Below, piece by piece: positions 13,922 to 39,381 of a DNA stretch of 45,828 nucleotides (position 1 is the first letter of the stretch; every line of letters starts with the position of its first letter). This stretch comes from Bacteroidales bacterium (lineage in GTDB: Bacteria; Bacteroidota; Bacteroidia; Bacteroidales; PUMT01). The notes beneath the pieces were generated by a model that saw only the letters and a program-made list of their open reading frames with translations, had not been told where the DNA came from and did not search any database. Made by a program: the position numbers and the translations under genes. The stretch spans positions 1 through 45,828 of the forward strand of contig SLPB01000143.1 of assembly GCA_007132225.1 (NCBI GenBank). The letters are read 5' to 3'.

Positions 13922-15262
13922 TTATGACGGAGCAGTTCCTGGAGTGGGAGCTACCGGAGGTATATCAACAGGGCCCATTCTATATTCGTCAGGTCCCAGA
14001 TCCATACTTGACTCCATCATTTCCCCCCATGTCACTTCCCTGCCGGTATAGGCAGATTGCCGTCCCATCATGGCAGTTATAACCGCTTCTGAAACATTCT
14101 GGGTTTCATTTAGATATTCTCCGGTTCGGATCGCATTAACAAGGTTTATGTGCGTCTGGTCATAGGGACTGACAGCAACCCTGTTAGTGGGTTCACCGTT
14201 TTCTCCAAGGGGGTACTGGTATTCCCAGATAAGATTCCCGTCATAATCCCAGATTTTGTTCTGGGCGTTGGTATAGCCCTTTGTTCCAAAAATAATCTCG
14301 GAAACATTATTGGTGCAGCCATCAATCTGTCTGCACATGGAATGCATATGACGGTTATCATCGAAAACAAAGTCAACACTAAAAAAGTCATATTGATCAC
14401 CGGTTGGCCTTCTGTGCCTGCCGCCGAATCCAACTGCACTAACCGGGTGCTTTTCAAAGAACCAGTTGACGACATCAATATTATGTACATGCTGTTCCAC
14501 TATATGATCACCGGATAACCACTGCCAGTTAACCCAGTCCCGTAACATATATTCCATGTCTGTCCAGCCCGGTTGCCGGTTTACATGCCATAGCTTGGAC
14601 TGGTTCCAGTAGCAATTGGCAGATACAAGATCTCCAATTTCGCCGTTTTTGACCATTTCAAAAGTTTTCACATAATCTCTCTGATGCCGCCTTTGTGTTC
14701 CCACTGCAACATTCAGTCCGGCTGCTTCTGCCATTTTACCTGCTGCCATAACAGACCGAATTCCCACCGGATCAACTCCAACAGGCTTTTCAGCAAAAAT
14801 GTGCTTGCGTGATTGTACAGCATACTCAAAACTAACAGGCCGGAAATGAGGTGGTTCACATAAAATAACAATATCTATATCTGTGTCGATTACCTTTTTA
14901 TAGGCATCAAAGCCTACAAAGCAATTTTCATCAGCAACTTCCACACCTTGTTTTTCACGGAGTTCATTTCTGCACCGGTCCAACCGGTGTTGAAAAACAT
15001 CACCGAGTGCTGTTATCTCAAGGTTAGGTCCTGCATTAATAAAATTTATTGCAGCACCGGTACCCCTGCCTCCACAGCCAACCACGCCGGCCTTCAGTAA
15101 AGGTCCGTCAGGTGCCTGAACCGGAAAAACGGGAGCCGTATATTCAGGTCTTCTGTTGCAGGATGAAACAACCGCACCCAGTCCAAGTGCACCCAGTGCA
15201 CCAATGGCAGCGGCATCGCCGATAAATTTGCGCCGGCTTGAAGTATTTGTTTTTTTATCCAT
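13922..15262 (-). CDS. Tat-exported lipoprotein oxidoreductase, Gfo/Idh/MocA family
   Basis: The 446-residue protein is an NAD(P)-dependent sugar or cyclitol oxidoreductase by fold. The N-terminus carries a twin-arginine motif SRRKFIG (residues 9-15), a hydrophobic stretch and a lipobox VSSC (Cys35). It is thus probably exported folded by Tat and lipid-anchored. The Rossmann domain follows with AGVVGCGGRGTG (about 58-69) and the family's EKP motif (AEKPVGVDP, about 158-166). The C-terminal alpha/beta domain includes QHVHNIDVVNWFF. Tat export fits a protein that binds its cofactor before crossing the membrane. The substrate is unknown. It lies 88 nt downstream of the cytochrome-SUMF1 fusion gene on the same strand and may share its transcript. 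Confidence 0.88.
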   Translation of the reverse strand: MDKKTNTSSRRKFIGDAAAIGALGALGLGAVVSSCNRRPEYTAPVFPVQAPDGPLLKAGVVGCGGRGTGAAINFINAGPNLEITALGDVFQHRLDRCRNELREKQGVEVADENCFVGFDAYKKVIDTDIDIVILCEPPHFRPVSFEYAVQSRKHIFAEKPVGVDPVGIRSVMAAGKMAEAAGLNVAVGTQRRHQRDYVKTFEMVKNGEIGDLVSANCYWNQSKLWHVNRQPGWTDMEYMLRDWVNWQWLSGDHIVEQHVHNIDVVNWFFEKHPVSAVGFGGRHRRPTGDQYDFFSVDFVFDDNRHMHSMCRQIDGCTNNVSEIIFGTKGYTNAQNKIWDYDGNLIWEYQYPLGENGEPTNRVAVSPYDQTHINLVNAIRTGEYLNETQNVSEAVITAMMGRQSAYTGREVTWGEMMESSMDLGPDEYRMGPVDIPPVAPTPGTAPS

Positions 15263-15350: not shown

Positions 15351-16865
15351 TTAGTTATCCTGATCCCATTCACATACAACCCTGAAACCAACTTCCCGGG
15401 TATCGGTGTACCACCAGATGCTTTTTGGTATCTGGGGATCTGTCATCTGCCATTGTTCGTGCCGGGTATGACTTCTGGCTGCAACCCTTACCTCACTGGC
15501 GTCAGAATTGAAAGATCCGCCCCTGATAACCCGTTCACGCCCGGAATCAGGACCTGTCGGATCAACAACAACACCTTCGGGATACATCGAATAGGTATCG
15601 GAGGCATACCAATCGCCTGTAAACTCATAAACATTTCCCAGTATATGTTCCAGTCCGAAAGGATTGGGCTGCACGGTTCCCGGTAGCTGTGTTCGCGCCA
15701 TGCTATTTTCATTATAGATGACATATGTATTTATAACAGCTGTATCCGGGCCAAAAATACGGTTCCACAATCGGTCCCGGCTGAATTTCCTTGGATCCCC
15801 GTCGAAAAAGTATGGTCCTGTTGTCCCCCCCCTTGCAGCATACTCCCACTCAGCTTCGGTGGGTAACCTGTAGGTTTTTCCGGTGATGGCCGACAACCAT
15901 TTACAATATGTATCCGCTGCATGCCAGGTCATAGTGATAGCAGGCCTTGCCCCCATTCCCCAGCCCTGGTCAGGCAGTCCCCATGGCGGAGTAGGGCCGG
16001 TAATAGCATCAACTTCACCAAGGTTGGTCGCATATACATTATCCTGCCTGCCTTCAGCTGCAGTCTGGTTATAGAATGCAAGAAACTCATCCCAGCTTAC
16101 TTCAAGTCGTCCCATAAAGAAGGGACTAATTTCCACATCCCTTACAGGCCCTTCATCTTCCTGCCGATATGGCTCGCCGGGGGGGCTGCCCATTTGGAAA
16201 ACTCCACCCTCTATGGCAACCATCTCAAAGCTTATTGCAGTCCCCGGAATCTTCTCGGTGAAATCTTCAAATTCTTTAACTGTTGAAGGTTCGGTAAATA
16301 TCTCCCTTTCAACATCCTGGTCAACTATAAACTGTACTCCTTCCTGCACCAGATCAGAATAGTGCCCTGTAAACATATGGCAATTGAGGCAGCTTAATTC
16401 ATCCTCATTCTGGCTGTAATAAAGATGTGCCTGCTGGCCATCAGAACTAAGTTGCATCGGAAACAGGTTCTGATGGCATTTGATGCAGGATTCATCATAT
16501 GTAAAACCTACCGCAGCCTCGACAGTACGTTTAGCTTCCCAGTTTACAGTCTCAATATCCGTGAATATCTGATGATATACAGAATGGGCACCGTGTTTTG
16601 CCTTAGCCAGCAAATAGTCAAGATTCCCTGGTGGGGGAAGATGGCATTCGGTACACTGAACATATATACCGGTCCTGTTATCATAATGAGCAGATTTCCT
16701 CCATGATTCCTCAGCATGGGGATGGGCATGGCAGGCATAACAGAACTCATTTGTTGAAGTATAACGTACAATACGGTCTCCCAGAAAAAGAAACAGGGCA
16801 GTAAGTACTGCCGTCACTAATACTAAGTACTTTCGACTGCGCTTATAAGACCGTCTCCTGACCAT
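15351..16865 (-). CDS. NapC/NirT-type tetraheme cytochrome c fused to a SUMF1-fold domain
   Basis: The 504-residue protein combines two families. Residues 1-35 form a basic start and one membrane anchor. Residues 36-170 carry four CxxCH heme sites (42-46, 71-75, 127-131, 159-163), with spacing and the FCYACHAHPHAEESW context of the NrfH/NapC quinol dehydrogenases. From about 210 to 500 lies a SUMF1/formylglycine-enzyme fold: MVAIEGGVFQMGSPPGEP, then YRLPTEAEWEYAARGG, GNVYEFTGDWY and the terminal VIRGGSF and EVGFRVVCEW. The paired catalytic cysteines of true formylglycine-generating enzymes are absent after RGGSF, so it is probably not a sulfatase-activating enzyme. It likely sits on the outer face of the inner membrane and takes electrons from the quinol pool. 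The acceptor is unknown; the Tat oxidoreductase downstream is a possible partner. Confidence 0.85.
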   Translation of the reverse strand: MVRRRSYKRSRKYLVLVTAVLTALFLFLGDRIVRYTSTNEFCYACHAHPHAEESWRKSAHYDNRTGIYVQCTECHLPPPGNLDYLLAKAKHGAHSVYHQIFTDIETVNWEAKRTVEAAVGFTYDESCIKCHQNLFPMQLSSDGQQAHLYYSQNEDELSCLNCHMFTGHYSDLVQEGVQFIVDQDVEREIFTEPSTVKEFEDFTEKIPGTAISFEMVAIEGGVFQMGSPPGEPYRQEDEGPVRDVEISPFFMGRLEVSWDEFLAFYNQTAAEGRQDNVYATNLGEVDAITGPTPPWGLPDQGWGMGARPAITMTWHAADTYCKWLSAITGKTYRLPTEAEWEYAARGGTTGPYFFDGDPRKFSRDRLWNRIFGPDTAVINTYVIYNENSMARTQLPGTVQPNPFGLEHILGNVYEFTGDWYASDTYSMYPEGVVVDPTGPDSGRERVIRGGSFNSDASEVRVAARSHTRHEQWQMTDPQIPKSIWWYTDTREVGFRVVCEWDQDN

Positions 16866-36496: not shown

Positions 36497-38350
36497 ATGG
36501 AAAAACAGCTTACCATTAAAGAAAAGAAATCGCTGGTAATCAAATTTGTTGGCGACTCGGGTGACGGGATGCAACTTGCAGGCAATCTTTTTTCAGATAC
36601 TGCAGCGGTTCTAGGTAATGACCTTTTCACCTTTCCGGATTACCCTGCTGAAATAAGAGCTCCACACAACACACTGGCTGGTGTATCGGGCTTTCAGGTA
36701 CAAATTGGCAAAGAGAAAATCTTCTCTTCAGGGGATCTGTGTGATATTCTTGTTGCTATGAACCCGGCGTCACTTAAAACAAATCTTAAATGGATCAGGC
36801 CAGGCGGGATGATAATTACTGATTCCGATGCTTTCAATGAAAAAGCTCTGGAGAAGTCAGGCTATCAGTCAAATCCGCTTACAGATGGAAGTCTTGATGT
36901 CTACAAGCTCATTAAGGCACCAGTAAGCTCCCTTACAAGGGAAAGTGTTTCACATCTGAATGTAAGTGCCAGGGCTGCCGACCGGTGCAGAAATATGTTT
37001 GCATTAGGAATTGTAACTTACATCCTCAACCAAAGTAAAGAGACAACCTTCAAATTTCTTGACAGAAAATTCGGTTCTGTTGTTACTGTACTGGAAATGA
37101 ATAAAACAGCAATGTCTGCCGGATATACGTTTGCTGAAAATATTGAAAATCTGGAATTCACCTATAAAGTACCCAAAGCAACCCTGAAAAAGGGTGTATA
37201 CCGTAACATTTCGGGAAATGTGGCTACTGCATGGGGATTGCTGGCTGCATCGGAACGTTCGGGTCGTCCCCTTTTCCTGGGCTCCTATCCCATCACACCG
37301 GCAACAGAGATCCTGATGGAACTGACAAAGAATAAATCTCTTGGTGCTAAAGTGTTTCAGGCGGAAGACGAAATTGCAGGTATATGCTCAGCACTTGGAG
37401 CAAGCTTTGCCGGGTCCCTGGCAGTGACTACTACATCGGGGCCCGGCTTGTCACTTAAATCAGAGGCAATAGGCCTGGCAGTAATGACAGAACTTCCCCT
37501 GGTAATAGTTAATGTTCAGAGAGCGGGCCCGTCAACCGGGATGCCCACTAAATCAGAACAATCAGATTTACTGCAGGCACTTTACGGTCGAAATGGAGCA
37601 TGCCCGGTAATAGTTATGGCGGCATCCACACCCGCCAACTGTTTTTACTATGCATACGAAGCTGCAAAGATAAGTATGGAGCATATGACCCCTTTAATAT
37701 TGCTCACAGACGGGTACCTGGGGAATGGCTCCGAACTTTTCAGGATTCCCAAAGTGTCTGAGCTTCCGGATATCTCTCCCCCCTTAGCCAGGGCAAATGA
37801 CAAGAACTACAAACCCTATAAACGCAATCCTGAAACTCTTGCAAGGCAATGGGCCCTGCCGGGAACCGAAGGTTTAAGACACAGAATAGGGGGACTTGAG
37901 AAAACAGATATAGATGGCACAGTCTCAACAGATCCCCAGAACCACCAGATCATGGTTAAAATCAGGGAAGAAAAGGTCAAAAAAGTAGCAGAATCTATTC
38001 CCCTGCAGAAAGTAGAGGGAGAAAAAACGGGCGACCTCCTGGTGGTAAGCTGGGGGGGTACCGAGGGTTCAATTAAAACAGCAATACGGGAAATGCAAAG
38101 AGTGGGAAAAAGCATAAGCCATGCACACTTTAATCATATAATGCCCCTGCCAAGAAATACGGGAAAAATCCTGGGAAGCTACAAAAAAGTTGTTGTGTGC
38201 GAACTTAATGAAGGGCAATTTATTAAATATCTGCGTATTGAGCACCCTGGGATAAAATATCTGCAATACAATAAAATTCAGGGCCTGCCATTTTTCACAG
38301 ATGAGCTTATTGATAAGTTTAACCAGTTAATCGAGGAGGATCAGTCATGA
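36497..38350 (+). CDS. korA: 2-oxoacid:ferredoxin oxidoreductase, alpha subunit (gamma-alpha fusion)
   Basis: The 617-residue subunit works with KorB to oxidise a 2-oxoacid, probably 2-oxoglutarate, to acyl-CoA while reducing ferredoxin. The N-terminal third (about 12-190) is the gamma domain (KFVGDSGDGMQLAGNLFSDT, FPDYPAEIRAP). The pyrimidine-binding alpha domain starts near 235 (GSYPITPATEILMEL, QAEDEIAGICSALGASFAGS, TTTSGPGLSLKSEAIGLA). The C-terminal domain II follows from about 515 (GDLLVVSWGGTEGSI). The gamma-alpha fusion is the common two-gene KorAB layout. Its stop overlaps the korB start by 4 nt, so translation is coupled. Substrate preference (2-oxoglutarate or another 2-oxoacid) is by family, not proven. 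Confidence 0.92.
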   Translation: MEKQLTIKEKKSLVIKFVGDSGDGMQLAGNLFSDTAAVLGNDLFTFPDYPAEIRAPHNTLAGVSGFQVQIGKEKIFSSGDLCDILVAMNPASLKTNLKWIRPGGMIITDSDAFNEKALEKSGYQSNPLTDGSLDVYKLIKAPVSSLTRESVSHLNVSARAADRCRNMFALGIVTYILNQSKETTFKFLDRKFGSVVTVLEMNKTAMSAGYTFAENIENLEFTYKVPKATLKKGVYRNISGNVATAWGLLAASERSGRPLFLGSYPITPATEILMELTKNKSLGAKVFQAEDEIAGICSALGASFAGSLAVTTTSGPGLSLKSEAIGLAVMTELPLVIVNVQRAGPSTGMPTKSEQSDLLQALYGRNGACPVIVMAASTPANCFYYAYEAAKISMEHMTPLILLTDGYLGNGSELFRIPKVSELPDISPPLARANDKNYKPYKRNPETLARQWALPGTEGLRHRIGGLEKTDIDGTVSTDPQNHQIMVKIREEKVKKVAESIPLQKVEGEKTGDLLVVSWGGTEGSIKTAIREMQRVGKSISHAHFNHIMPLPRNTGKILGSYKKVVVCELNEGQFIKYLRIEHPGIKYLQYNKIQGLPFFTDELIDKFNQLIEEDQS

Positions 38351-39381
38351 TCAATAACCGTATATCACCTTCGGAAATATCGCTTACAAAAAAAGATTTT
38401 ATGAGCGACCAAATGGTAAAATGGTGTCCCGGCTGCGGAGCACATGCCATATTGAAAGCGGTTGAAAATGTCTTTCCGGAAATTGGATACAAAAAGGAAA
38501 ATTTCATGTTTGTTTCCGGGATAGGATGCTCATCCCGTTTCCCATACTATTTAAACACTTACGGAATCCATGGTATACATGGAAGAGCTGCTGCCATTGC
38601 CACCGGTGTTAAAGTTTCCAACCCCGGACTGAGTGTGTGGATAGCTACTGGTGACGGTGATTCAATGGCAATTGGAGGAAACCATTTTATACATGTGATA
38701 AGAAGGAATTTGGATGTAAATATCCTTTTATTCAATAACCGGATATATGGCCTTACCAAGGGGCAATACTCACCGACCACACCAATAGGCAGTATTACAA
38801 AAACATCCCCCCATGGCACAATTGAACATCCATTTGTCACTGCGGGTCTTGTAATGGGGGCTCAGGGTACATTTTTTGCACGGGTCCTTGATTCAGATAT
38901 AAAAATGATGTCAGAGGTTATGTCTGAAGCTGCAAGGCATGACGGAACATCAGTTGTGGAAATACTGCAAAATTGCATAATTTTTGCAGATAAAGCACAC
39001 TCCCTTGTTACAGACAGGGAACTCAAGGAGGACTACCAGGTGCATCTGAAGCATGGTGAGCCTATGCTTTATGGCAAGAACAGGGAAAAAGGCATACAAC
39101 TCAAGGGAACCAAACTACAGGGTGTGGTTGTCGGACTTAATGGAGTTGAAATGGAAGATATACTTATACATGATCAGTACGAAAAAAATCCCGGTATCCA
39201 CCGCATGCTCGGCAAAATGGAGCCGCCCGATCTTCCGATGGCACTGGGAGTAATAAGATCAGCAGAATATGAAACATATGATGATATGGTTGAAATACAG
39301 GTTGAGTCAGCTAAAGAGACCTCGGAAATTAAATGCATGGATGACCTTCTTAACAGCGAAGAGACCTTTGAAATCAAATAG
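38347..39381 (+). CDS. korB: 2-oxoacid:ferredoxin oxidoreductase, beta subunit (thiamine diphosphate-binding)
   Basis: The 344-residue subunit binds thiamine diphosphate and completes the KorAB enzyme. Landmarks are KWCPGCGAHAILKAV (about 22-36), GIGCSSRFPYYL, HGRAAAIATGVK, and the cofactor motif GDGDSMAIGGNHF continuing to LLFNNRIYGLTKGQYSPTT. The gene overlaps korA by ATGA. No separate ferredoxin-type delta subunit gene is present, as is usual for this two-subunit type. Such enzymes run a reductive or anaerobic TCA cycle and are oxygen-sensitive, which supports a low-oxygen lifestyle. A lipoprotein gene begins within or just after its 3' end. Confidence 0.92.
   Translation: MINNRISPSEISLTKKDFMSDQMVKWCPGCGAHAILKAVENVFPEIGYKKENFMFVSGIGCSSRFPYYLNTYGIHGIHGRAAAIATGVKVSNPGLSVWIATGDGDSMAIGGNHFIHVIRRNLDVNILLFNNRIYGLTKGQYSPTTPIGSITKTSPHGTIEHPFVTAGLVMGAQGTFFARVLDSDIKMMSEVMSEAARHDGTSVVEILQNCIIFADKAHSLVTDRELKEDYQVHLKHGEPMLYGKNREKGIQLKGTKLQGVVVGLNGVEMEDILIHDQYEKNPGIHRMLGKMEPPDLPMALGVIRSAEYETYDDMVEIQVESAKETSEIKCMDDLLNSEETFEIK

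Follow-up and report, generated by a model that had tools for sequence, protein, structure and literature searches.

What does a tetraheme cytochrome of the NapC/NrfH type accomplish when it is joined in one chain to a SUMF1 fold, and with which enzyme does it exchange electrons? The question is raised by a gene in contig SLPB01000143.1 of a Bacteroidales bacterium (assembly GCA_007132225.1), of which the whole stretch of 45,828 nucleotides, hereafter the window, was analysed. The initial annotation, made from the sequence letters, had described four CxxCH sites, a membrane anchor and a SUMF1 domain in a single protein and suspected a periplasmic redox function in which menaquinol feeds the SUMF1 domain. 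In the present analysis, the fused protein is read, at a probability of roughly 0.5, as a membrane-anchored, quinone-linked electron-transfer partner of a dehydrogenase of the Gfo/Idh family that is encoded immediately downstream and exported by the twin-arginine translocation (Tat) route.

The architecture itself is plain. The gene is a single uninterrupted open reading frame (ORF) with an ATG start and zero internal stops, and both of its domains lie far over their Pfam cut-offs: Cytochrom_NNT at E 1.4e-27 (97.0 bits against 24.1) and FGE-sulfatase at E 3.4e-43 (148.6 bits against 23.3). At none of the four sites does a heme-binding cysteine or histidine vary across the 70 distinct fused proteins; a structure model of the fusion, of mean predicted local distance difference test (pLDDT) score 49.8, was too poor for use, and the heme-domain sequence by itself matched 0 PDB entries at E 0.01. 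The conservation of this NapC/NirT tetraheme–SUMF1 fusion makes a real periplasmic redox function likely, as had been suspected.

A scan of genome contigs matched 20 loci, of which 19 (L006–L024) lie in other assemblies and encode the same fusion at 52–83% identity (contig ends truncate L012 and L021), and the twentieth (L025) encodes a plain NapC-like protein; the titles of the 19 name 10 Bacteroidales metagenome-assembled genomes (MAGs), with Tangfeifania and Draconibacterium among the rest. The profile search for NapC/NirT plus SUMF1 in one protein, which the initial annotation had proposed, returned matches covering the heme part (heme plus SUMF1) in 3 of the 395 genomes of a phylum-wide sample and, at E ≤ 1e-120, in 51 of the 393 genomes (26 of 206 genera) of an order-wide sample; both counts take in the window's own genome, genome G347 is common to both, and in one of the 51 (G759) the match starts at profile position 159, at a contig edge. 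The order-wide search yielded 59 matching places, namely the window, G347, 50 that were examined and seven that were left out (G709, G408, G523, G697, G720:C177, G624:C197 and G759), four of the seven carrying internal stops. Altogether 73 loci were taken as fused, those other than the window being 3.4 to 31 kb long; ORFs were called with a longest-ORF script of our own and no gene finder, L021 (contig end) and L140 gave none, and the 71 ORFs obtained represent 70 distinct proteins, L009 and L104 apparently being one contig. Because L012 ends inside the SUMF1 domain, residues near the C-terminus are counted over 69 proteins. In a tree of the SUMF1 domain (49 rows, with 24 of 47 fused rows used; support by the Shimodaira–Hasegawa-like approximate likelihood ratio test, no bootstrap), a branch with support 98 separates the fused rows from all others, a topology that is compatible with a single fusion event.

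The fusion is thereby found in many Bacteroidota, a gut bacterium included: among plasmid records searched at the protein level, a single nearly full-length match came up, in Parabacteroides distasonis (92% of the query covered, at 50.1% identity), where its annotation reads no more than 'SUMF1/EgtB/PvdO family nonheme iron enzyme'. This copy (L026, NZ_OY725790.1, 48351–79781) lies in a record named plasmid 45 (277 kb) that also bears housekeeping-type and O-antigen genes and may be chromosomal sequence; its locus further holds a TonB-dependent receptor and two genes for regulators of the LuxR type.

The second conserved feature is the gene that follows. In 62 of 71 cases, the fused ORF is directly followed on its own strand by a gene of one and the same Gfo/Idh/MocA cluster, a count made over related, non-independent sequences with one locus pair duplicated; neighbour families here are single-linkage BLAST clusters, named from scanned example members. 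In the window this gene lies 88 bp downstream of the fused gene, and 60 such pairs have a median spacing of 39 bp, with 56 of the 60 at 100 bp or less. When either strand is counted, Gfo/Idh genes occupy 64 of 70 slots at offset +1 versus 20 of 592 when the remaining offsets between −6 and +6 are pooled; the gene families at those other offsets vary between locus groups, and the pair of fused gene and Gfo/Idh gene stays constant. The nine exceptions to the 62 comprise L010 (close to a contig end), L012 (truncated), L133 and L134 (followed by Gfo/Idh on the opposite strand), and L014, L018, L022, L107 and L132, which are considered below. The initial annotation had advised inspecting the gene neighbours without mentioning this one; the inspection puts the likelier catalytic partner in the next gene rather than in the SUMF1 domain.

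The window's Gfo/Idh protein scores 39.7 bits against PF01408 (cut-off 24) and 70.8 bits against an inositol 2-dehydrogenase model whose cut-off is 355. Partners of the fused type keep the NAD-binding glycines and the EKP/His/Asp residues, with both twin arginines, E158, K159, H253, H260 and D263 present in 60 of 60. The partner was also modelled (mean pLDDT 67.2); the PDB entries that resemble this model are inositol dehydrogenases, aldose-aldose oxidoreductase and glucuronide-3-dehydrogenase, and these matches, at the level of a predicted structure, confirm the Gfo/Idh fold only. Distances in the SUMF1 and Gfo/Idh trees correlate at 0.77 over 66 pairs (reduced from 81, of which 60 fused), at 0.41 over 47 fused and at 0.57 over 19 unfused pairs, values that in every case 0 of 2000 permutations reached; shared descent alone could yield such correlations, so they are not leaned on.

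The pairing is wider than the fusion, because sister proteins without hemes keep it too. The heme-free SUMF1 proteins closest to the fusion's domain, at 273 bits and below in the phylum-wide profile search, are followed on the same strand by a Tat-type Gfo/Idh gene at 21 of 27 loci, and a twin-arginine-type pattern is present in 21 of these 21; 26 of the 27 loci were aligned (L045 left out). Because enzymes of this one family accompany the sisters as well, the SUMF1 domain is taken to serve the Gfo/Idh system as a module for docking or for ligand binding, and the cytochrome looks like an electron outlet added to a SUMF1–Gfo/Idh pair.

Table 1. Features of the fused gene and of its downstream neighbour, in window coordinates.
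Feature	Position	Strand	Details and basis
Fused gene: N-terminal anchor, tetraheme NapC/NirT domain, SUMF1 domain	15351..16865	minus	504 aa; ORF, Pfam, homologues
Hydrophobic membrane anchor	16761..16829	minus	about residues 13–35; by eye from sequence; helix 2–36 in low-confidence model
Cytochrom_NNT (NapC/NirT) domain	16362..16838	minus	residues 10–168; PF03264
Heme motif 1, CYACH, then H48 (CxxCHxH)	16728..16742	minus	residues 42–46; 70/70 fused proteins
Heme motif 2, CTECH	16641..16655	minus	residues 71–75; alignment of fused proteins
Heme motif 3, CIKCH	16473..16487	minus	residues 127–131; alignment of fused proteins
Heme motif 4, CLNCH	16377..16391	minus	residues 159–163; alignment of fused proteins
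SUMF1/FGE-sulfatase domain	15459..16226	minus	residues 214–469; PF03781
D286-A-I-T-G-P-T292, resembling the ApbE flavinylation motif (speculative)	15990..16010	minus	residue conservation; motif definition PMC12052999
Gfo/Idh/MocA-family dehydrogenase with Tat signal, proposed redox partner	13922..15262	minus	446 aa; PF01408/PF22725/PF02894 and TAT signal; conserved neighbour
Twin-arginine pair (R10 R11) of the Gfo/Idh Tat signal	15230..15235	minus	both R in 60/60 fused-type partners

The direction of electron flow is suggested by the heme domain. Heme motif 1 is never of the NrfH type CxxCHxM in the fused proteins, its methionine being replaced by histidine throughout; heme 1 would thus be bis-His ligated and of lower potential, in keeping with electrons arriving from a sugar-type donor. 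Such donors would drive the chain toward the quinone, and the flow from menaquinol to an acceptor that the initial annotation assumed is accordingly doubtful. Two residues that NrfH proteins conserve according to the available part of PMC4683180, Lys82 and Asp89, are matched in spacing by K88 (70/70) and D95 (69/70) of the fused proteins. The protein falls short of the NCBIfam models for NrfH (62.5 bits against 134.2) and for the NapC/NirT subfamily TIGR02161 (57.3 against 310.6), and its neighbour is a Gfo/Idh gene. Moreover, the fused cytochrome is probably not a nitrite-reductase partner, because the window genome has a separate NrfH-type tetraheme gene (L153, G000:C84:10355–10798) adjoining an NrfA-like ORF (four CxxCH plus CxxCK, by eye); that NrfH carries CINCHVM, keeps the lysine and has His at the aspartate position, and NrfH-like nitrite respiration was set aside as the principal explanation on the strength of this separate CxxCHxM locus.

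Bacteroidota commonly encode exported Gfo/Idh dehydrogenases, and many are present in the loci examined; the periplasm is not known to have a free NAD pool, which raises the question of how these enzymes dispose of their electrons. In the preferred reading, the Gfo/Idh enzyme would oxidise a sugar or glycoside hydroxyl in the periplasm with tightly held NAD(P), the SUMF1 domain would dock this enzyme or its sugar, and the electrons would travel through the tetraheme domain to menaquinone, the reverse of NrfH; the pathway would then run as a net oxidation tied to anaerobic respiration, e.g., fumarate reduction. The window genome does encode a succinate dehydrogenase/fumarate reductase flavoprotein and, next to an ORF that looks CcsA-like by eye, a ResB match that barely clears its cut-off (24.8 bits, with 24.6 required). 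A possible precedent for the direction is the CymA of Sideroxydans, a NapC/NirT family member that has been proposed as a quinone reductase (PMC6295460, available part).

The wider neighbourhood bears on the substrate. Within six genes of the fused gene, an AP_endonuc_2 TIM-barrel cluster occurs at 23 of 71 loci, with an RR/RK-type Tat pattern in 23 of 23 TIM proteins, a ThuA cluster at 10, a SusC-type cluster at 6 and a SusD-like cluster (named by eye) at 5; in the window, no TIM-barrel or ThuA gene adjoins the fused gene. Four scanned second Gfo/Idh proteins have BT_2158_fam as their best model (E 1.6e-47, 2.7e-45, 4.5e-53 and 2.8e-36, all under the cut-off). BT2158 is a periplasmic glycoside 3-dehydrogenase and BT2157 a 3-ketotrehalose hydrolase, according to the available parts of PMC11300592 and PMC9007349, respectively. 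The TIM barrels, ThuA and BT2158-like neighbours therefore suggest a locus concerned with keto-sugar or glycoside metabolism outside the cytoplasm, and in part of the loci the keto-sugar-type neighbours also include TonB-dependent receptors of the SusC type. Two further genes were seen in passing: at five loci (L109, L114, L116, L120 and L125) a protein of about 850 residues (neighbour cluster 21) is encoded upstream of the fused gene, the L109 copy bearing a Laminin_G_3 domain, and two adjacent ORFs of the window (36497–39381) resemble, by eye, a 2-oxoacid:ferredoxin oxidoreductase pair.

Several points weigh against the proposed partnership. The chief one is chemical: no converter is known here between a hydride (NADH) and one-electron hemes, so that direct flow from Gfo/Idh enzyme to heme is awkward. 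The heme-free sisters possess both SUMF1 and Gfo/Idh, and the pair evidently does not need the cytochrome; at the same time, 6 of the 27 sister loci lack such a Gfo/Idh gene, among them L045, where no SUMF1 ORF was called. The window's partner reaches only 31.5 bits against the BT_2158_fam cut-off of 750, and BT2158-type cycles may be redox-neutral. In the genome, menA is matched only under its cut-off. Quinone chemistry by analogy with NrfH is likewise insecure: according to the available part of PMC10654088, Met49 (heme 1, CxxCHxM) and Asp89 of NrfH are both essential for menaquinol oxidation, yet the former is His in the fused family, and D95 is a weak marker, the window protein alone of the 70 having Ser there and the genome's own NrfH having His. 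Finally, at five of the 71 loci the next gene is of another kind, being SusC-type at L014, L018, L022 and L107 and GH43 at L132.

These last neighbours (4/71 and 1/71) lend themselves to another explanation, which we consider unlikely: that the SUMF1 domain binds carbohydrate or surfaces, that the cytochrome serves some other, unlinked acceptor, and that the Gfo/Idh adjacency reflects co-regulation only. SUMF1/C-type-lectin-like folds are indeed ligand binders. The adjacency at 62 of 71 loci with its short gaps, and its retention by 21 of 27 sisters, argue for more than co-regulation. A passive binding module, which the initial annotation had regarded as fatal to its own proposal, may nevertheless be what the SUMF1 domain proves to be, and the system would still be of interest.

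Alternatively, the same Gfo/Idh partnership could run backwards, menaquinol supplying the enzyme with electrons for keto-sugar reduction. Known NapC/NrfH/CymA members mostly oxidise quinol (PMC12285233 and PMC6295460, available parts), which speaks for this direction. The absence of the NrfH methionine at heme 1 speaks against it. Menaquinol, at about −0.07 V, is furthermore too weak a donor for NAD or keto-sugars at about −0.2 to −0.3 V, and the reverse direction is held to be distinctly unlikely.

The step from hydride to heme would lose its difficulty if the SUMF1 domain carried covalent flavin mononucleotide (FMN), attached by ApbE at T292, which received the hydride from NAD(P)H on the Gfo/Idh enzyme and released its electrons one by one to the hemes; this is a long shot. 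The ApbE target motif is D-x-x-[S/T]-G-A-[S/T], and about 50% of flavinylation remains when its Ala is changed to Val (PMC12052999, section 8). Of the residues that are invariant in the SUMF1 domain of all 70 fused proteins (D286, G290, T292, P294 and W302–G303), the first three would fit this motif, with S/T at 289 in 66 of 70; at residue 291, however, Ala is found in 17 of 70 and Pro in the remaining 53, the window protein included, and the strict motif at residues 286–292 is confined to 13 of 70, the window's D-A-I-T-G-P-T not among them. Elsewhere in the fused loci the strict motif turns up in one other ORF (L108, glycerol-kinase-like by eye). G290 goes with the hemes, being missing from 26 of 26 aligned sisters; those sisters, mostly [D/E]-x-x-[S/T/A]-R-P-[S/T], keep the acidic residue and S/T for some other reason, which detracts from the remaining matches. 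The window genome encodes ApbE, but none of the 73 fused loci does, although short loci could miss it. If the flavin were real, a self-contained hydride-to-quinone relay outside the cytoplasm, ending at menaquinone, would be completed, and the domain would represent a new class of ApbE-flavinylated electron carrier; to our knowledge, the SUMF1 fold has not been found to carry flavin.

Around the heme-free sisters, ApbE is encoded at 5 of 12 wide loci (L063, L065, L066, L068 and L059; 12 to 19 kb) versus 0 of the 73 fused loci. Flavinylated proteins and cytochromes can substitute for one another in such systems (PMC8238504, available part). ApbE as a replacement for the cytochrome was nonetheless rejected, the strict D..[ST]GA[ST] motif occurring in none of the ORFs called at the 12 wide loci and two looser motifs being present. 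At the two wide sister loci tested out of the 12, L065 (2–9359) and L070 (3164–11043), the heme-free SUMF1 and Gfo/Idh genes are accompanied by genes for a GMC oxidoreductase, Gluconate_2-dh3 and TIM-barrel-like proteins, with ApbE at L065; the GMC and Gluconate_2-dh3 pair is presumably of the LacA/LacC type of lactose 3-dehydrogenase. At L059 (11905–15716), a heme-free SUMF1 gene lies near planctomycete-type PSCyt1/PSCyt2/PSD1 and DUF1501 genes, with no adjoining Gfo/Idh gene.

The initial annotation's own mechanism, in which menaquinol electrons cross the hemes to a SUMF1 domain that is itself a catalyst of the FGE, EgtB or PvdO type, dependent on oxygen or a metal, is very improbable. It draws on the covalent joining to the hemes and on the solved structures matched by the SUMF1 sequence, which are FGE chains first and then PvdO. 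However, on alignment to solved FGE the cysteine pair is found in 0 of the 69 fused proteins with sequence there (a single Cys in 20), although the window genome's own FGE-like protein (L001) keeps CxxxxC; the Pfam scan gave no DinB domain in the fused protein; and the NCBIfam cut-offs are far off for PvdO (103.4 bits against 500), EgtB (59.1 against 360) and SenA (58.9 against 420) and were not reached for GldK. With the diagnostic residues absent and the family cut-offs unmet, catalysis of the FGE, EgtB or PvdO kind was rejected. The hosts, a gut Parabacteroides and MAGs with sediment-suggesting names, would also seem to live where oxygen is scarce. What survives of that proposal is a conserved tetraheme–SUMF1 redox protein; what does not is the SUMF1 domain as catalytic electron acceptor, on account of the missing Cys pair and DinB domain and of the sisters' retained Gfo/Idh partner. 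An assembly join of two genes, which the initial annotation had named as a refutation, or a chance ORF is virtually excluded, since 70 distinct proteins spread over many assemblies show this fusion, and no point was found in favour of either.

The preferred reading, with the fused protein as quinone-linked partner of the Gfo/Idh enzyme, thus offers in a conserved gene pair a concrete, testable answer to how exported Gfo/Idh dehydrogenases, Parabacteroides distasonis included, may dispose of their electrons, and it would give a subfamily of SUMF1 proteins a non-catalytic, partner-binding role. The domains are known, and no description of the cytochrome–SUMF1 combination with its conserved Gfo/Idh partner was found in the literature searched; judged from sequence, the conserved combination and its partner appear to be the new part.

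Compared with known systems, the protein resembles the NapC/NirT/NrfH/CymA quinol dehydrogenases (PF03264) in its N-terminal anchor, four CxxCH sites, conserved Lys and nearly invariant Asp, and differs from them in CxxCHxH at heme 1, in the fused SUMF1 domain and in its usual Gfo/Idh neighbour. With the SUMF1-fold proteins FGE, PvdO and GldK/PorK it shares the SUMF1 core (LPTEAEWEYA, GN(V)xE, RGG); it lacks the Cys pair of FGE, falls short of the PvdO and GldK cut-offs and has a DPQxPKSxWW tail (TDPQ-PKS-WW in 69 of 69), most of which is common to the Gfo-linked, heme-free sisters. The 3-keto-glycoside systems of Bacteroides thetaiotaomicron (BT2158/BT2157) likewise have an exported Gfo/Idh enzyme, and some fused loci add TIM-barrel, ThuA and BT2158-like proteins, whereas the fusion brings a dedicated membrane cytochrome and its direct partner is a distant relative of BT2158. 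A further parallel is offered by the glucoside 3-dehydrogenases of the LacABC type, composed of FAD (flavin adenine dinucleotide)-GMC, Gluconate_2-dh3 and cytochrome c components, in which a cytochrome also passes on the electrons of sugar oxidation. LacABC is required for lactose use (PMC9007349, available part); in the system described here, the corresponding roles would fall to a Gfo/Idh enzyme of the NAD(P) type and a tetraheme protein of the NapC type.

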